In this document: piece by piece, positions 18,684 through 24,551 of the stretch
Layout: every line of letters begins with the position of its first letter
Position numbering within the stretch: the first letter of the stretch is position 1
Assembly (NCBI RefSeq): GCF_001705235.1
Contig: NZ_MCGV01000002.1
Span: 1 to 64,000, forward strand
Direction of reading: 5' to 3'
Length of the DNA stretch: 64,000 bases
DNA from: Clostridium pasteurianum
GTDB taxonomy: Bacteria > Bacillota > Clostridia > Clostridiales > Clostridiaceae
Program-made: the position numbers and the translations under genes
Notes under the pieces: model-generated
Seen by the model: only the letters and a program-made list of their open reading frames with translations
What the model was told of the DNA's origin: nothing
Databases searched by the model: none

Positions 18684-18986
18684 TTAGTTTTGGTATTTTT
18701 TCTTTAGTTCAATAACCCTTTCCCTTGCAAGTTCAGTAATATCAACAATATCATCAATACTATCTCCACGTTTTAGCATTTTTTCAGCCATTTTTACTTT
18801 TCCTTGAGCTATTCCCTGAACTATACCTTTGGCTATTCCTTCTTCTCTAGCAGTTTTTAGTCTAGTCATCTGGTCATGGATTTCTGCTTCTCTTGCTTCA
18901 TATGCCATTCTTGATTTTTCGTCTTTACTTATTATTTGAAGTTTATCATAAGCTTCTTTTATATCTTTATTTTTTGACGCCAGCAT
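18684..18986 (-). CDS. Candidate intragenic small protein from the Rpn gene, copy 1 (RpnS-like)
   Basis: Within the Rpn reading frame an AAGGAGG Shine-Dalgarno (complement of 18995-19001) sits eight bases before an in-frame ATG at 18986, an ideal start that would give a 100-residue protein equal to the C-terminal third. In the Rpn family, C-terminal proteins made from such internal starts have been described as antitoxins that block the full-length nuclease. The site is conserved in the second copy. Codons alone could create it by chance, since Lys-Glu-Val is read through it, so this is a prediction. Confidence 0.45.
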   Translation of the reverse strand: MLASKNKDIKEAYDKLQIISKDEKSRMAYEAREAEIHDQMTRLKTAREEGIAKGIVQGIAQGKVKMAEKMLKRGDSIDDIVDITELARERVIELKKKYQN

Positions 18987-19589
18987 TTCCATTACCTCCT
19001 TTGACTTTGCTCCTATAAATTCCATCCACTGAATTACTGCTGTATTCTCATCTTTTTTTACGTCTTTTTTATCGAGTTTTGGAAGTTCTAAATAGTGAAT
19101 TTCAAGTATATCTGTAAGTCTATATCCTGTTTCATCCTCTGTTATATGATAACTTGTATGAACTTTATTTAACGGTATACACTCAAAATCCACTATATTT
19201 ATGGTTATACATTTTTTTAGTTTGTCATAAGTATCTCCAGATTTTATCTGTGATGTATACATTTTTGACCAGTAAAAAGTTGTTCTTTCAGCCATATAGT
19301 CCGTTGATAGTACCTGAATTTCTATATCGATTTCTTTTTTGTCTTTTGTTTTTGCTCTTACATCTAAAATACCTTTTTTATCTTCTGCAAATTGTCTTGG
19401 CAGTTCATTATTTATTATTTTTAAATCATTAAGTTCTTCTTTAGATATATTTAATATGGAGCTTAATAGTGATTGCAGTAAAGCTATGTTGTTGGAATCT
19501 CCAAACAAAAGCTTAAATGCAAAATCTACTTTTGGAGACATTATAAAATTATCATCGTAAATTTCAGATCTTCTTGTTTTTCCAGCCAT
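18684..19589 (-). CDS. Rpn-type PD-(D/E)XK nuclease (recombination-promoting nuclease family), copy 1
   Basis: 301 residues. The N-terminal region has FIMSPKVDFAFKLLFGD, then ILDVRAKTKDKKEIDIEIQ, giving the nuclease residues Asp76, Glu90 and Gln92 (D...E-x-Q). A helical middle follows and a repetitive tail with EEGIAKGIVQGIAQGK. The Rpn/PDDEXK family of putative transposases has metal-dependent DNase activity, and members have been shown to be toxic antiphage proteins. It is nearly identical to the gene at 23658-24551 except over the last ~50 residues. The start has AAGGAGATG upstream. An internal start at 18986 may give a separate C-terminal protein. Confidence 0.85.
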   Translation of the reverse strand: MAGKTRRSEIYDDNFIMSPKVDFAFKLLFGDSNNIALLQSLLSSILNISKEELNDLKIINNELPRQFAEDKKGILDVRAKTKDKKEIDIEIQVLSTDYMAERTTFYWSKMYTSQIKSGDTYDKLKKCITINIVDFECIPLNKVHTSYHITEDETGYRLTDILEIHYLELPKLDKKDVKKDENTAVIQWMEFIGAKSKEVMEMLASKNKDIKEAYDKLQIISKDEKSRMAYEAREAEIHDQMTRLKTAREEGIAKGIVQGIAQGKVKMAEKMLKRGDSIDDIVDITELARERVIELKKKYQN

Positions 19590-19835: not shown

Positions 19836-19864
19836 TTGACAAACATTTTGCAAAAAGGGATAAT
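19836..19864 (+). promoter_or_regulatory. Promoter of the nitrogenase-like operon
   Basis: -35 TTGACA (19836-19841), 17-bp spacer, -10 GATAAT (19859-19864). It lies about 200 bp before the first start codon, leaving a long leader. Confidence 0.7.
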
Positions 19865-19869
19865 GTTTT

Positions 19870-20040
19870 TGTTAATCTGACGTCAAAATATTTTTGAGAT
19901 GGAAGTTACAGAATGTATAATATTGTATGGAACTAAGGGCTATCAGTATGAAATTTAATAGCTAATCTGATAGGCTTATATATGGGAAAATAATATTATT
20001 TTGATATAACTGCATCTTTAAGGGTGCAGTTTTTTATTTT
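19870..20040 (+). promoter_or_regulatory. Structured leader with terminator ahead of the nitrogenase-like operon; candidate riboswitch or attenuator
   Basis: A hairpin pairs CTATCAG (19940-19946) with CTGATAG (19967-19973), extended by AAG/CTT. Near the end AACTGCATC pairs with GGTGCAGTT (about 20009-20031) followed by TTTTATTTT, an intrinsic terminator inside the leader. I could not match it to a known riboswitch class. The terminator just before the ribosome site implies regulated read-through. Confidence 0.55.
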
Positions 20041-20066
20041 ACATACTTTACTTGGAGGGAATAAAA

Positions 20067-20324
20067 ATGGAAACTAGAGTTGCTATTATTGGAATAATTG
20101 TTGAAAATGAGAGTTCAGTTGAGTCATTAAATGCTTTACTTCATGAATACGGAAAGTACATAATTGGACGTATGGGTATTCCTTACCGTGTAAAGAGCAT
20201 AAATATAATAAGCATTGCTATAGATGCTCCTCAGGATGTAATTAGTGCACTATCCGGTAAGATAGGAAAATTGAATGGAATTAGCAGTAAGACCTTGTAT
20301 TCTAAGGTCATTACAAAAGAATGA
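20067..20324 (+). CDS. TM1266-family putative regulator (ACT/NikR-like small protein)
   Basis: 85 residues: ETRVAIIGIIVENESSVE, then LLHEYGKYIIGRMGIPYR and INIISIAIDAPQDVISALSGKIGKL. This is the pattern of the TM1266 family, named as a putative regulator of the iron-only hydrogenase system and with a ferredoxin-like ACT fold. It has no DNA-binding domain of its own. ATG 20067 has GGAGGG seven bases upstream; an in-frame TTG at 20052 overlaps that site and is rejected. Here it heads an operon with nitrogenase-like genes, so it may sense a ligand for, or assist, that enzyme. Confidence 0.75.
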   Translation: METRVAIIGIIVENESSVESLNALLHEYGKYIIGRMGIPYRVKSINIISIAIDAPQDVISALSGKIGKLNGISSKTLYSKVITKE

Positions 20325-20369
20325 TTTGACCATTTATAAAGGTAAAAAAGACAGGGAGGGATGAGATTT

Positions 20370-21134
20370 ATGATAAAAATAGCTGTTTACGGAAAAGGCG
20401 GAATAGGGAAGTCTACAACAGTTTCTAATATTGCTGCTGCCCTTGCAAAAAAGGGACTTAAGGTTATGCAGATTGGCTGTGATCCTAAAGCAGATTCCAC
20501 TATAAATTTACACAATGGTACGGTAATTCCTACTGTGCTTGATTTAGTTCGTGCAAAGAAAAATGACTTTGCTCTTGAGGACATGACTACAGTGGGATAT
20601 GCCGGTGTTGTCTGTGTTGAGGCAGGAGGTCCAACACCTGGACTTGGATGTGCGGGTCGTGGCATTATTGCAGCGCTAGAAAAGCTTAAGGAGAAAGGTG
20701 CATATGAAGTATATAAGCCTGATGTAGTAATTTACGATGTCCTTGGTGATGTGGTCTGCGGCGGATTTTCCATGCCAATGCGCAGTGGATACGCTAATAA
20801 AGTGTTTATTGTTACTTCAGGTGAAAATATGTCCATCCATGCAGCAGCAAATATTGCAGTTGCAGTTGAAAATTTTAAGGACAGGGGATACGCTGAGCTT
20901 GGAGGTCTCATTCTTAATCGCAGAAATGTAAAAAATGAAGAAGAAAAAGTGGCAGAACTGGCAGATGACATTAATTCAACCATTGTAGGTACACTTGACC
21001 GCAGTGAAACCGTTCAGGAGGCAGAAAACCTTAAGAAAACAGTAATTGAAGCATTTCCTGAAAGTGAAATGGCAGATCAGTATAGAAAACTTGCTGTGAG
21101 CATTATGAAGGACTGCGGAAAGGAAATATTATGA
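20370..21134 (+). CDS. NifH-like ATP-dependent reductase of a nitrogenase-like system
   Basis: 254 residues. P-loop GKGGIGKST at residues 8-16; Cys94 in GLGCAGRGI and Cys130 in [10 protein letters not shown] are the pair that holds the [4Fe-4S] cluster between two subunits. [14 protein letters not shown] and CDPKADST are close to true NifH. In the nitrogenase superfamily this protein feeds electrons, with ATP hydrolysis, to a D-K partner. The protein is shorter than nitrogen-fixing NifH (about 275-295). ATG 20361 is adjacent to the GGAGGG ribosome site, so ATG 20370 is chosen. Overlaps the next gene by 4 bases. Confidence 0.88.
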
Positions 21135-22459
21135 TAAGTATTAGTGCAGCAAAAAAAGATAAATCAAATGTATATGTAAAAATTAAAGAAGCAGAGTTTC
21201 CTTCATCTTTTGTATCGGGCTTAGAATACAGTGCGCCTGCAAGAGGTACCTGGAATATTGTCCATACCGGTATGTTAATACCTGGAGCACATCAAATTTT
21301 TGTGTGTGCCTTGGGCTGCCTCAGGGGTGTTGTACTCACAGCGGCTGAAATGAATGCTATGGATAGATTTTCATCTGTAGTTATTTATGAAAACAATGTG
21401 CTGGAAGGTGACATGGAAAGTCTTATTATTGATGGTGTAGCGGACATACTTAAAAAGCTTCCTAAGAAGCCGCCTGCTGTTCTGGTTTATACAAGCTGTA
21501 TCCATCATTTTATGGGATGTGATCTTTCAGTTGTTTACCGTACCCTACGAGAAAAATTTCCTGATGTGGCATTTGCGGACTGTTATATGAATCCAATTAT
21601 GCGTAAAAGCGGACTTAATCCGGATCAAATTATGAGCCGTCAACTCTATAGTCTTCTTGAAAAACGTCCTAAAAATGGATTATCTATTAATATTATAGGC
21701 AATAATTTTGCTACTTATGAAAGCAGTGAACTTGTCCGTATGATTCGTGAAAATGGTTTTGAACTTAAGGATATTACTCTGTGCAGGACTTATGAGGATT
21801 ATCTTAGTATGGCAGAAAGTGCAGTTAATATATCCTACAATCCAGTGGCAAAAGCAGGAGGCGATGAACTTGAAAGAAGGCTTGGACAAAAGCATTTGTA
21901 TCTGCCTCTTTGTTACGGTTATAAGGAAATAACAGAGCATTTATATGAACTGGCGGATTATCTTAATATACCAAAGCCGGATTATACTTCTGCCATTGAA
22001 GGTGCAGAGAAAGCCTTAAAAAAAGCAAAAAATGTTCTTCGCGATACACCAGTTGCCATCGATTATACTGCTACCATGCGTCCCCTTGGCCTTGCACGAC
22101 TTTTAATTGAACATGGCTTTAAAGTGGATAGAGTATATGCTGATGGATTTAATGAAGAAGAAAAGGATGATTTTTATTGGCTTAAGGAAAATAGTCCTGA
22201 GCTTAAAATATATCCTACGGTTAATGCTAGAATGCGTGTACTGCCAAGAAAAAGTAATGAAAAAATGCTTGCAATAGGGCAGAAGGCAGCATATTTTACT
22301 GGTACAGAAAACTTTGTGAATATAGTACAGGGTGGAGGAATGTATGGCTTTGATGGTATTTGCCGCATGGCTGATCTTATGATGGATGCTTATATTAATA
22401 CCAAAGATACAAGGAACTTGATACAAATAAAGGGATTGGGGTGTGATTGCTTGTTATGA
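21131..22459 (+). CDS. NifD-like catalytic subunit of a nitrogenase-like complex
   Basis: 442 residues of the nitrogenase component 1 / oxidoreductase family. Cys59 and Cys63 ([13 protein letters not shown]) and Cys123 ([12 protein letters not shown]) are placed like the cluster-ligating Cys of NifD. The C terminus ends GLGCDCLL, an unusual Cys-rich tail. The usual His ligand of the iron-molybdenum cofactor is not recognisable, so a nitrogen-fixing enzyme is unlikely. Related enzymes reduce protochlorophyllide, a nickel tetrapyrrole, or methylthio-alkanes; the substrate here is unknown. Start overlaps the NifH-like stop (ATGA). Confidence 0.8.
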
Positions 22460-23598
22460 GACAAACAGCGAGTTTTATTTCAACTTATTCGGCAGATGAA
22501 GCCGGCATTTGCTCTGCACTATATGAATTAGGCGGAATGACGGTGATACATGATCCCTCAGGATGTAATTCAACTTATACTACCCATGATGAACCTAGAT
22601 GGTATGACATGGATAGCATGATATATATATCTGGACTATCAGAAATTGAAGCTATTATGGGCGACGATGATAAGCTTATAAATGATATTTTAGAGGCAGC
22701 AAAACAACTGTCACCGCGTTTTATAGCAATTGCAGGATCACCGATTCCAATGATGGTAGGAACTGATATTGAGGCTATTGCAAAAGTTGTGGAGCACAGG
22801 GCGGGGATACCTACCTTTGGCTTTTTAACAAACGGAATGAATTCATATTTATCTGGGGCAAGTATGGCTTTTAAGGCGGTTGCAGAGAGAATGGTTGATA
22901 GAAATATTAGTAAAGACAGCAAATTGTCTTTAAATATTATAGGGGCAACGCCTCTTGATTTTTCTGTTAACGGCAGTGTGGATTCAATAAAAAAACTGCT
23001 CATAGATAATGGGCTTAATATAGTAAGTACATGGGCAATGGGTAGTACTTTAGATGAAATTAAGAAATCCGGACAGGCATCGGTTAATCTTGTTATATCA
23101 TACTCAGGATTAGCTGCTGCTGAAGAACTTAAAAAGATGTTTGGTACTCCTTATGTTGTTGGTGTACCATACGGAAAAACATTTTCAAAACAGATTATTC
23201 AAGATTTGAAAGCTGCTGTGGATACTGGAGAAAATAAAGTATGCTATACGAAAAGATTAGTTAAGGATATGTCCGATATTACGATTATTGGTGAAAGTGT
23301 AATGTCTGGTTCTATTGCAGCAGCTATTAATGCTGAATCAGGCAGAACAGTACAGGTACTTTGCCCTCTGGAAACGGAACAAAAGCTCATGGCAGACGGT
23401 GATTTTAGTGCACGTGATGAGGATGATTTAGCACCATACCTTAAAAAGTCAAAAATATTAATTGCTGATCCAATGTATCGTCCAATATGTCCCAAGAACT
23501 GTGAATTTATAGCTCTGCCACATGAAGCATTTTCAGGGAGAATATACAGCAAGGACATACCTAATTTGGTTGAGGATTTTAAGTTAAAAAGAAATTAA
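22456..23598 (+). CDS. NifK-like subunit of a nitrogenase-like complex
   Basis: 380 residues when read from ATG 22456, which overlaps the preceding TGA; a TTG nine bases earlier is less likely. The segment TVIHDPSGCNSTYTTHDEP, with Cys37, aligns with the NifK block around its second P-cluster Cys. The third NifK cluster Cys is replaced (IAGSPIPMMVGTDI has none) and Cys19 is shifted from the first. Partner of the NifD-like protein, probably as a heterotetramer. The TAA stop lies inside a small inverted-repeat element that also serves as terminator. Confidence 0.8.
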   Translation: MRQTASFISTYSADEAGICSALYELGGMTVIHDPSGCNSTYTTHDEPRWYDMDSMIYISGLSEIEAIMGDDDKLINDILEAAKQLSPRFIAIAGSPIPMMVGTDIEAIAKVVEHRAGIPTFGFLTNGMNSYLSGASMAFKAVAERMVDRNISKDSKLSLNIIGATPLDFSVNGSVDSIKKLLIDNGLNIVSTWAMGSTLDEIKKSGQASVNLVISYSGLAAAEELKKMFGTPYVVGVPYGKTFSKQIIQDLKAAVDTGENKVCYTKRLVKDMSDITIIGESVMSGSIAAAINAESGRTVQVLCPLETEQKLMADGDFSARDEDDLAPYLKKSKILIADPMYRPICPKNCEFIALPHEAFSGRIYSKDIPNLVEDFKLKRN

Positions 23599-23633
23599 GA
23601 ATGGTGGTAACTTTTTCTTCACCATTCTTAATT
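23592..23633. terminator. Minimal family A element acting as terminator (copy A5)
   Basis: AATTAAGAATGGTG and CACCATTCTTAATT are perfect 14-bp arms around 13 bases that carry the family A internal GTAACTTTTTCTT. T-rich DNA follows. It contains the stop codon of the NifK-like gene. Confidence 0.7.
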
Positions 23634-23657: not shown

Positions 23658-23948
23658 CTAGTTTTGGTACTTCTTTTTAAGTTCAATTACTTTTTCTTTT
23701 GTAAGTTCTGATGCTGAAGCTACTTGTTCAACCGTGAGCCCCATTTTTAATAAATTTTCTGCTATTCTCACTGCTTTTTCGGCGGCTCCTTGAGTTATTC
23801 CTTCTTCTCTAGCAGCTTTTAGTCTAGTCATCTGGTCATGGATTTCTGCTTCTCTTGCTTCATATGCCATTCTTGATTCTTCATCTTTGCTTATTATTTG
23901 AAGTTTATCATAAGCTTCTTTTATATCTTTATTTTTTGATGCTAGCAT
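23658..23948 (-). CDS. Candidate intragenic small protein from the Rpn gene, copy 2 (RpnS-like)
   Basis: AAGGAGG (complement of 23957-23963) lies eight bases before an in-frame ATG at 23948, giving a 96-residue protein. It contains all of the tail in which the two Rpn copies differ, as expected if tail and antitoxin co-vary. Prediction only. Confidence 0.45.
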   Translation of the reverse strand: MLASKNKDIKEAYDKLQIISKDEESRMAYEAREAEIHDQMTRLKAAREEGITQGAAEKAVRIAENLLKMGLTVEQVASASELTKEKVIELKKKYQN

Positions 23949-24551
23949 TTCCATTACCTCCTTTGACTTTGCTCCTATAAATTCCATCCACTGAATTATT
24001 GCGGTATTTTCATCTTTTTTTACGTCTTTTTTATCGAGTTTTGGAAGTTCTAAATAGTGAATTTCAAGTATATCTGTAAGTTTATATCCTGTTTCATCCT
24101 CTGTTATATGATAACTTGTATGAATTTTGTTTAATGGTATACACTCAAAATCTACTATATTTATGGTTATACATTTTTTAAGCTTGTCATAAGTGTCTCC
24201 AGACTTTATTTGTGATGTATACATTTTTGACCAGTAAAAAGTGGTTCTTTCAGCCATATAGTCCGTTGATAGCACCTGAATTTCTATATCTATTTCTTTT
24301 TTGTCTTTTGTCTTTGCTCTTACATCTAGAATACCTTTTTTATCTTCTGCAAATTGCCTTGGCAGTTCATTATTTATTATTTTTAAATCATTGAGTTCTT
24401 CTTTAGATATATTTAATATGGAGCTTAATAGTGATTGCAGTAAAGCTATGTTGTTGGAATCCCCAAACAAAAGCTTAAATGCAAAATCTACTTTTGGAGA
24501 CATTATAAAATTGTCATCGTAAATTTCAGATCTTCCTGTTTTTCTAGCCAT
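23658..24551 (-). CDS. Rpn-type PD-(D/E)XK nuclease, copy 2
   Basis: 297 residues, almost identical to the gene at 18684-19589 up to the AAREEGI region, then a different tail (QGAAEKAVRIAENLLKMG, then VEQVASASELTKEKV) before the shared last residues VIELKKKYQN. Nuclease residues Asp76, Glu90, Gln92 are conserved. The upstream ~120 bp also matches copy 1, so a block of about 1 kb was duplicated. Same strand as copy 1; together they bracket the nitrogenase-like operon as direct repeats. The internal ribosome site is conserved. Confidence 0.85.
   Translation of the reverse strand: MARKTGRSEIYDDNFIMSPKVDFAFKLLFGDSNNIALLQSLLSSILNISKEELNDLKIINNELPRQFAEDKKGILDVRAKTKDKKEIDIEIQVLSTDYMAERTTFYWSKMYTSQIKSGDTYDKLKKCITINIVDFECIPLNKIHTSYHITEDETGYKLTDILEIHYLELPKLDKKDVKKDENTAIIQWMEFIGAKSKEVMEMLASKNKDIKEAYDKLQIISKDEESRMAYEAREAEIHDQMTRLKAAREEGITQGAAEKAVRIAENLLKMGLTVEQVASASELTKEKVIELKKKYQN

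Follow-up and report, generated by a model that had tools for sequence, protein, structure and literature searches.

A 64,000-nucleotide stretch of Clostridium pasteurianum DNA (hereafter the window), comprising bases 1-64000 of the smaller of the two contigs of a 4.68 Mb genome, carries an operon in which a small TM1266-family gene is followed by genes for NifH-, NifD- and NifK-like proteins, here termed H1, D1 and K1 (Table 1). This gene order had been proposed in an initial annotation made from the sequence alone, and it is borne out by matches to TIGR03959, PF21699, PF00142 and PF00148. The ATGA overlaps described at that time exist at the H/D (21131-21134) and D/K (22456-22459) junctions, but TM1266 and H1 are separated by a gap of 45 nucleotides. 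The start that had been given for the operon, position 19836, coincides with a near-consensus promoter. Relatives of D1 in related loci are 52-66% identical to it, which argues that the operon is not a chance set of open reading frames. Loci and genomes are cited below by our own L and G numbers.

Table 1. Features of the operon and its flanks, in window coordinates.
Feature	Position	Strand	Evidence
Sigma-70-type promoter TTGACA-17-GATAAT of the operon	19836..19864	+	11/12 consensus positions; consensus match only
Conserved leader RNA hairpin CUGA-NNNN-RAAA..UUGA-NNNN-RAAG	19875..19915	+	Model R1, 46.3 bits (training sequence); covariation
Intrinsic-terminator-like hairpin in the leader, 5' of TM1266	20008..20031	+	10-pair stem and T tract
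TM1266-family protein, putative regulator or sensor	20067..20324	+	TIGR03959, 112 bits (cut-off 60.8); PF21699, 109.6 bits
H1, NifH-like ATP-dependent reductase with P-loop and Cys94/Cys130	20370..21134	+	PF00142, 297 bits
D1, NifD/E-like subunit	21131..22459	+	PF00148, 83 bits; alignment A1
K1, NifK/N-like subunit	22456..23598	+	PF00148, 117 bits; alignment A3
Rpn/PD-(D/E)XK transposase flanking the operon	18684..19589	-	PF12784, TIGR01784
Second Rpn transposase copy, same orientation	23658..24551	-	Translation nearly identical to first copy

Family assignment of H1, D1 and K1

None of the three proteins scores above cut-off with any NCBIfam model for Nif, Vnf, Cfb or Bch. H1 scores 324.7 bits with the NifH model (cut-off 394.35), D1 has no nifD match at E 0.001, and K1 gives 18.5 bits with nifK (cut-off 427.3). 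Scores for dark-operative protochlorophyllide oxidoreductase (DPOR) and chlorophyllide oxidoreductase are likewise too low, both for H1 (BchL 205.5 bits, cut-off 345.15; BchX 164.4, cut-off 331.2) and for its partners (DPOR subunit N 23.9, cut-off 324, for D1; BchB 59.6, cut-off 490.35, for K1). The best model for H1 is that of CfbC, a likeness to the CfbCD system, but its 331.7 bits lie under the cut-off of 402, a K subunit is present here, and the gene context is another one. Ten PF00148 matches occur in the genome, of which D1 and K1 are the only two in the window. The nifDKEN-like genes lie on the other contig, and the absence of nifE and nifN from the window, as originally noted, is confirmed.

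H1 keeps the P-loop and two cysteine motifs. In D1, Cys59, Cys63, Cys123 and Cys151 are invariant (alignment A1, 17 sequences), and K1 has a single invariant cysteine, Cys37 (alignment A3, 16 sequences). Alignment by hhalign with the Nif proteins of this genome places D1 Cys123 opposite the third P-cluster cysteine of NifD and K1 Cys37 opposite the middle one of NifK, whose third cysteine is lost; D1 Cys63 was assigned to a P-cluster position by its motif and by eye. The NifD-like protein had been said to lack the cofactor histidine. Indeed, the position of the histidine that binds the iron-molybdenum cofactor (FeMo-co) is Tyr405 in D1 (by eye, in A1), and the cofactor cysteine is absent as well, its place being taken by a variable Asn237 (hhalign). 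For these comparisons we take the NifD cofactor ligands to be Cys275 and His442, and the names of the P-cluster ligands are likewise assumed.

In a quick tree, in which the reference sequences sit on long branches, D1 forms one group with D2 of a second H-D-K set found beside Hyp genes and with four D3 proteins of a third family (Shimodaira-Hasegawa-like approximate likelihood ratio test, SH-aLRT, 99). K1, K2 and four K3 proteins do the same (SH-aLRT 100), while D and K proteins of Sporomusa fall outside these groups on long branches, and the H tree resolves H1 and H3 poorly. The placement in a nitrogenase-superfamily tree that had been suggested for these proteins sets the D and K groups apart from NifDKEN of this genome and from BchNB; they also stand apart from its Mar-like pair, although that pair is Mar-like by gene context only. 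A profile match to 9fmg, which we take to be MarD, is weak (25.3 bits). The Mar-like genes lie in a cluster elsewhere in the genome (L092:6287-11530, minus strand), where genes for a NifB-like radical S-adenosylmethionine (SAM) protein and for D, K and H proteins stand beside cystathionine-lyase- and cysteine-synthase-like genes as judged by eye; it resembles methylthio-alkane reductase clusters by this context only. Nothing pointed to a function of the operon in sulfur or tetrapyrrole metabolism, though no test was aimed at such a role.

Two P-cluster cysteines in D and one in K is the pattern of a NifHEN-like 'red clade' that has human-microbiome members, Coprococcus catus and Dorea (Dos Santos et al. 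2012, PMC3464626), and by sequence D1 and K1 appear to follow it. One sentence in the available text of that paper links the clade to hydrogenase maturation proteins. The present system thus resembles the clade in its cysteines, in having two linked copies and in its association with hydrogenase maturation, but HydG, TM1266, the Hyp and Fec alternatives and a leader RNA are not named in that portion of the account.

Gene neighbourhoods and the distribution of HydG

A search of genome contigs with D1 matched 394 stretches, the best 80 of which are treated here as loci. Neighbouring genes were counted by tblastn over these 80 loci, many of which are ended by contig ends. TM1266 sequence is present in 62 loci, as a separate gene in 57 and only in fused form in five, and a frame test finds a TM1266 domain in frame with a Fec ATPase in 33. 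HydE was detected in 44 loci and HydF in 31, with one or both in 53; FecB, FecCD and the Fec ATPase occur in 48, 43 and 45, and D2, HypF and HypD in 20, 20 and 19. A count of 77 for K2 was discarded as cross-detection of K1. Of the 33 loci that extend 6.5 kb or more upstream and 6 kb or more downstream of the K1 start, 25 have a separate TM1266 gene, 19 have HydE, 18 have HydF and 24 have either maturase. Family models applied to L109 confirm both HydE (522.7 bits, cut-off 254.6) and HydF (576.5 bits, cut-off 325.55). The link to TM1266 across genomes therefore holds, and, with no curated family cut-off reached, so does the view that an uncharacterised nitrogenase-like set is tied to this protein. 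That TM1266 is out of place in such company, as first supposed, is not borne out, given HydE or HydF in 53 of the 80 loci and the absence of HydG from most carriers tested.

The loci fall into two types. Type A loci include D2, HypF or HypD, that is, the second H-D-K set with Hyp genes, and type B loci include a Fec importer gene. Within the stretch at hand 21 loci are of type A, 53 of type B, none of both and six of neither. In L109 the genes for TM1266, HydF, HydE, fused H1D1, K1, H2, D2, K2, HypF, HypD and HypE follow one another on one strand. The fusion there (L109:9709-11805, minus strand) joins H1 and D1 in a single reading frame of about 700 amino acids, as is also seen in L041 and L047, the last of which apparently comes from the same genome as L109. 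The window's own genome has its type A part, H2-D2-K2-HypF-C-D-E, at L091 on the large contig, with HydE, HydF and HydG elsewhere on that contig.

Fusion of the TM1266 domain to an ATP-binding cassette (ABC) ATPase was confirmed with Pfam for L111, where the domain forms the C-terminus of a FecBCD-type ATPase (L111:10269-11321, minus strand). TM1266 matches within ABC ATPases had been considered as chance hits, a view ruled out by this fusion. The arrangement resembles the sensor domain of MetN, and fusion to the Fec ATPase suggests that TM1266 may be a small-molecule sensor domain. The large contig also has another TM1266-like gene (36.5 bits, cut-off 27), of more divergent sequence, at L093:8174-8479, with no hydrogenase gene noticed beside it.

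The distribution of HydG was analysed in a class-level sample of 175 genomes, each at least 95% complete, searched with seven queries; carriers of D1 and D2 were defined by matches of at least 500 and at least 580 bits, respectively. Above their cut-offs, HydG was found in 116 genomes, HydF in 121, [FeFe]-hydrogenase in 149, HypD in 36 and the NiFe-hydrogenase large subunit in 30. D1 is carried by nine genomes and D2 by seven, all of them D1 genomes too. The carrier count omits four genomes with weaker D-family matches of 295-347 bits (G059, G088, G113 and G119) and the low-scoring G090 and G166. Among the 121 genomes with HydF, HydG lies below its cut-off in nine, and eight of these nine carry D1 versus one of the 112 others ([[1,8],[111,1]], Fisher p = 8.9e-11; four HydG-positive genomes with HydF under the cut-off are excluded from this table). 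Collapsing by genus and D1 status gives [[1,5],[82,1]] and p = 8.6e-7.

HydE and HydF exceed their cut-offs in all nine D1 genomes. [FeFe]-hydrogenase does so in seven among the matches listed; the other two, G125 and G165, have best E values of 5.5e-148 and 4.2e-131. In six of the nine carriers one [FeFe]-hydrogenase each was inspected and found to keep TSC(C/S)PGW, MPCxAK and GGVMEA, presumably the H-cluster motifs, and so these enzymes should need an H-cluster. A non-random set of 50 of the 80 locus genomes (odd-numbered L011-L089 together with L012, L014, L018, L020, L024, L040, L052, L084, L088 and L090) has HydE above cut-off in 48, HydF in 45 and HydG in only seven, and therefore genome incompleteness does not explain the gap in HydG. 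The class-level and locus sets are not disjoint, G193 (locus L047) having the same contig coordinates as G165. Co-occurrence with HydE and HydF, which marks [FeFe]-hydrogenase maturation, is evident in both sets.

The contrast can be seen within one genus, g48, where G046, G108, G125 and G158 carry D1 without HydG above cut-off and G069 has HydG with no D1 match. The operon of G069 (L115) reads TM1266-HydE-HydG-HydF, whereas three g48 carrier loci (L113, L114 and L122) read H2-D2-K2-HypF..HypE and then TM1266-D1-K1-HydF. D1-K1 thus stands between TM1266 and HydF, as HydG does in L115.

A survey of eight acetogens found HydE and HydF in all of them and, judging by its motifs, no HydG in three; it also reported that C. 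carboxidivorans has HypC-D-E in two copies and that five acetogens have HypC-D-E-F but lack HypA-B (PMC9431212). In our searches C. carboxidivorans (L014) is a carrier with no HydG above cut-off. The authors of the survey saw no straightforward explanation for acetogens that have such hydrogenases together with HydE and HydF yet lack HydG by the motifs used, and they offered several, one of them an atypical HydG-like protein. An atypical HydG-like radical SAM protein, which they propose for most of their acetogens, would mean that HydG is present in carriers but too divergent to be detected. We regard this as extremely unlikely, because the best matches in HydG-less carriers stay below 230 bits (cut-off 312) and full-length divergent HydG proteins score 475-540.

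MarBHDK and IsrBHDK are, like the operon, H-D-K operons of nitrogenase-like group IV, and such relatives act on methylthio-alkanes and isethionate and work with a radical SAM protein B of their own (PMC11423573). An unrelated sulfur- or nitrogen-compound reductase might merely travel with hydrogenase genes, and sulfur-type genes can be seen by eye near the edge of single loci, cysteine-synthase-like in L109 and homocysteine-methyltransferase-like in L015. Such an enzyme leaves the missing HydG and the loci shared with HydE and HydF without a cause, and in the quick tree the Mar-like pair of this genome falls elsewhere than the D and K clades; we consider it very unlikely.

Hyp genes show a related pattern. 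A NiFe-hydrogenase large subunit above cut-off accompanies HypD in 30 of 36 genomes; the remaining six all belong to the seven genomes with D2 (p = 3.6e-6), each with H2-D2-K2, and the Hyp genes of these six are not for NiFe-hydrogenase. The seventh D2 genome is that of the window, whose only HypD match lies in the H2-D2-K2 operon; its NiFe large subunit gene lies, like the window, on the small contig (G000:C2:179982-181235). Type A operons thus contain the same four proteins, HypFCDE, as NiFe-hydrogenase maturation, but in a setting that adjoins H2-D2-K2 and, in six of seven genomes, with no NiFe large subunit above cut-off.

Since the Hyp proteins make an Fe(CN)2CO group (PMC12130793), and Hyp genes without NiFe-hydrogenase coincide with H2-D2-K2, HypF-C-D-E alone might replace HydG, the H-D-K sets merely supplying electrons or reducing HypC-D. 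This seems quite unlikely in view of two type B carriers, G057 and G114, in which D1, HydE and HydF are accompanied by neither a HypD match nor D2 at 580 bits nor HydG above cut-off. From these two genomes, the constant part of the replacement would be D1K1 with an H protein.

A proposed nitrogenase-like replacement of HydG

From the observed gene content, gene order, covarying leader RNA (see below) and pattern of HydG absence, we propose, with a probability of about 0.72, that TM1266-H1-D1-K1 is the core of a nitrogenase-like system that takes over HydG's task in assembly of the [FeFe]-hydrogenase H-cluster. That HydG's role is replaced appears quite probable; the detailed chemistry set out below is rather less likely than not. 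The role proposed for the system, supply of an Fe-CO/CN unit to HydE and HydF, is that of HydG, from which the carbon monoxide and cyanide of hydrogen-producing enzymes come. HydG is, however, a radical SAM tyrosine lyase of unrelated fold and chemistry, whereas D1K1 would be a nitrogenase-like two-component reductase with no radical SAM component.

Electrons, with ATP, would pass from the H protein to D1K1, which would lack FeMo-co and would carry, in place of the P-cluster, an Fe-S cluster with a presumed fourth ligand. This complex would produce or transform an Fe-CO/CN unit that HydE and HydF carry onward to the 2Fe subcluster; on the simplest reading, it would hand a reduced Fe-CO/CN unit to HydE and obtain the precursor from a variable part, either Hyp with H2D2K2 or the importer. 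In type A genomes the HypF-E and HypC-D proteins encoded with H2-D2-K2 would provide the cyanide and perhaps even a complete Fe(CN)(CO) unit. In type B genomes a compound imported by the FecBCD-type transporter would take the place of the Hyp-derived unit, the import substrate being conjectural. TM1266, whether free-standing or joined to the transporter ATPase, may sense an intermediate, the supposed regulatory ligand, and the hairpin and terminator of the leader may attenuate the operon.

A more speculative extension is a second natural route to the H-cluster ligands, in which nitrogenase-family complexes would form the Fe-CO/CN unit and type A bacteria would derive cyanide from carbamoyl phosphate through HypE/F. 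Type B bacteria, many of them from gut samples by their record titles, would use an importer gated by TM1266 to scavenge from their neighbours a ready-made iron-cyanide/carbonyl compound or a related precursor, and the leader RNA would sense an assembly intermediate.

Several observations weigh against the proposed replacement. HydE, HydF and HydG are not near the operon in the window, and the genome of the window has a HydG of its own (493.8 bits, cut-off 312), which aligns over its full length to 4WCX, presumably a HydG structure, and keeps the CxxC-x22-C motif. Because this true HydG is kept, the system in this genome is extra, alternative or in transit. The seven HydG-positive genomes among the 50 locus genomes are further carriers of this kind. 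Conversely, G127 has neither HydG above cut-off nor a D1 match, and its operon (L121:7047-9544) consists of TM1266-HydE-HydF. If HydF is ignored, the association over all 175 genomes is weaker ([[1,8],[115,51]], p = 8e-4), because many genomes lack both D1 and HydG, and all p-values are optimistic because the genomes are related. H1 is not constant either, H2 being the only H protein in L113, L114 and L122, for which reason one H protein may serve both the D1K1 and D2K2 complexes. The proposal does not account for the cyanide of G057 and G114, which have no HypD match. Finally, G113 has a sister H-D-K family with FecBCD while HydE, HydF and HydG are all under cut-off, which means that the wider family either serves another role or has a substrate in common.

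This wider family includes H3-D3-K3 sets with FecBCD in G088, in G113 and on a Treponema plasmid (L130). Among its loci L116, L117, L118 and L130, the importer adjoins in the last three and not in L116. A more distant H-D-K set with FecBCD, with a TonB siderophore receptor nearby, is found on a Sporomusa plasmid (L129). HydE and HydF were not seen in the stretch read of the third-family loci and L129. These sets would suit a D1K1 that provides H-cluster iron by reducing an iron chelate or tetrapyrrole taken up by the cell (siderophore, haem or corrinoid), with CO and CN from another enzyme, as would the L111 importer permease, which is nearest to BtuC/FecC models, all under cut-off. Such a role would leave unexplained why HydG is missing rather than an iron transporter and why type A loci contain HypF-C-D-E, and we judge it unlikely.

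If the proposed replacement of HydG is true, it would connect two kinds of metallocofactor chemistry, assign a function to a clade that had none when it was described in 2012, and change the annotation of hydrogen metabolism in gut and syngas bacteria; the split between types A and B predicts a compound made by some bacteria and imported by others. Among the matches listed from the open-licence literature, a body outside which subscription papers and most preprints lie, titles and abstract openings describe no replacement of HydG by a nitrogenase-like set. In the available text of a C. autoethanogenum transposon study (PMC9004356), nothing was found on H1D1K1-type genes.

A covarying leader RNA and the setting of the operon

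Upstream of TM1266, the leader contains a pattern, CUGA-NNNN-RAAA..UUGA-NNNN-RAAG, in which a helix of four base pairs, whose bases vary yet match, is flanked by possible tandem G.A pairs. A terminator lies 3' of the hairpin, and in loci such as L015 its 5' arm can be paired, by eye, with the segment following the hairpin. The single-sequence fold of the window leader includes both hairpin and terminator, with an unremarkable energy (z -1.40; 18 of 200 shuffles as low). A second 11/12 promoter match is located at 19894-19921. The region has 20 promoter-like sites versus 16.7 in shuffles and five terminator-like sites versus 3.2.

Covariation was scored in alignment A4, whose 28 rows were hand-picked from 53 pattern matches after near-duplicates and chance-looking and coding-sequence matches had been dropped; reversed sequences gave no pattern matches. 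In these rows 97.8% of cells are paired and 29 are changed on both sides, counts that lean towards structure because the pattern required at least three of the four central stem pairs. The covariation score is 0.335; shuffles give 0.188, with none of 500 reaching the observed value, and sliding the pairing yields no more than 0.113. A recount used 17 rows, 16 of them distinct, comprising 16 recovered by a similarity search with no pairing demand and L024, placed by the model. Here 99.2% of cells are paired, ten are changed on both sides, and the score is 0.295, compared with 0.165 in shuffles, none of 500 scoring as high, and no more than 0.116 with the pairing slid. The covariation result stands on rows chosen with no demand for pairing. 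Pairs changed on both sides and further pair types do not exceed shuffles in the 28 rows (50 and 497 of 500 shuffles as high) or in the 17 (109 and 468 of 500).

Model R1, built from the 28 rows, gives 41 matches at E <= 0.05 in 1.36 Mb from 99 sources, 28 of them training sequences. Thirty-nine lie within 37 of the 80 loci, the other two being the window and L111, and these 39 sit 59-403 nucleotides before the aligned start of TM1266 (21), HydE (11), FecCD (6) or HydF (1). At this threshold R1 was not found in L115, L121, L119, L091 or L110, and a 13.7-bit match in L096 was judged to be chance. The leader of the H2-D2-K2-Hyp operon (L091:10350-10450, minus strand) has a CUGA..CUGA element and a terminator by eye, with only a cut 7.6-bit match to R1. 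Rfam searches, to E 5 for the window and at the gathering score for ten loci, placed no family on the hairpin; the one hit that overlaps the window leader is to caiA, falls below threshold and covers the terminator (24.3 bits, gathering score 55.5). The leader element (19875-20035) is thus a candidate new RNA, possibly a riboswitch or protein-bound attenuator of H-cluster maturation operons.

A weak R1 copy (L107:8260-8301, minus strand; 17.5 bits, E 0.09 over 198 kb) precedes hydG of the window's own genome and is followed by a terminator-like hairpin by eye. Shared control of the D1K1 and HydG routes would fit this placement but is not established, because a match of similar score (16.3 bits) occurs at an unrelated place in L092.

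The contig that carries the window is probably a large plasmid, since subtracting the larger contig of 4,485,768 bases from the genome leaves about 191 kb. In a megablast search against plasmids, no closely matching copy of the operon turned up. The two flanking Rpn transposase regions are 94.2% identical over 865 nucleotides, and G+C content is 37-41% in H1, D1 and K1, 33% in TM1266 and 32.5% in the window. The transposase copies on either side and the raised G+C suggest that the operon is a fairly recent arrival.

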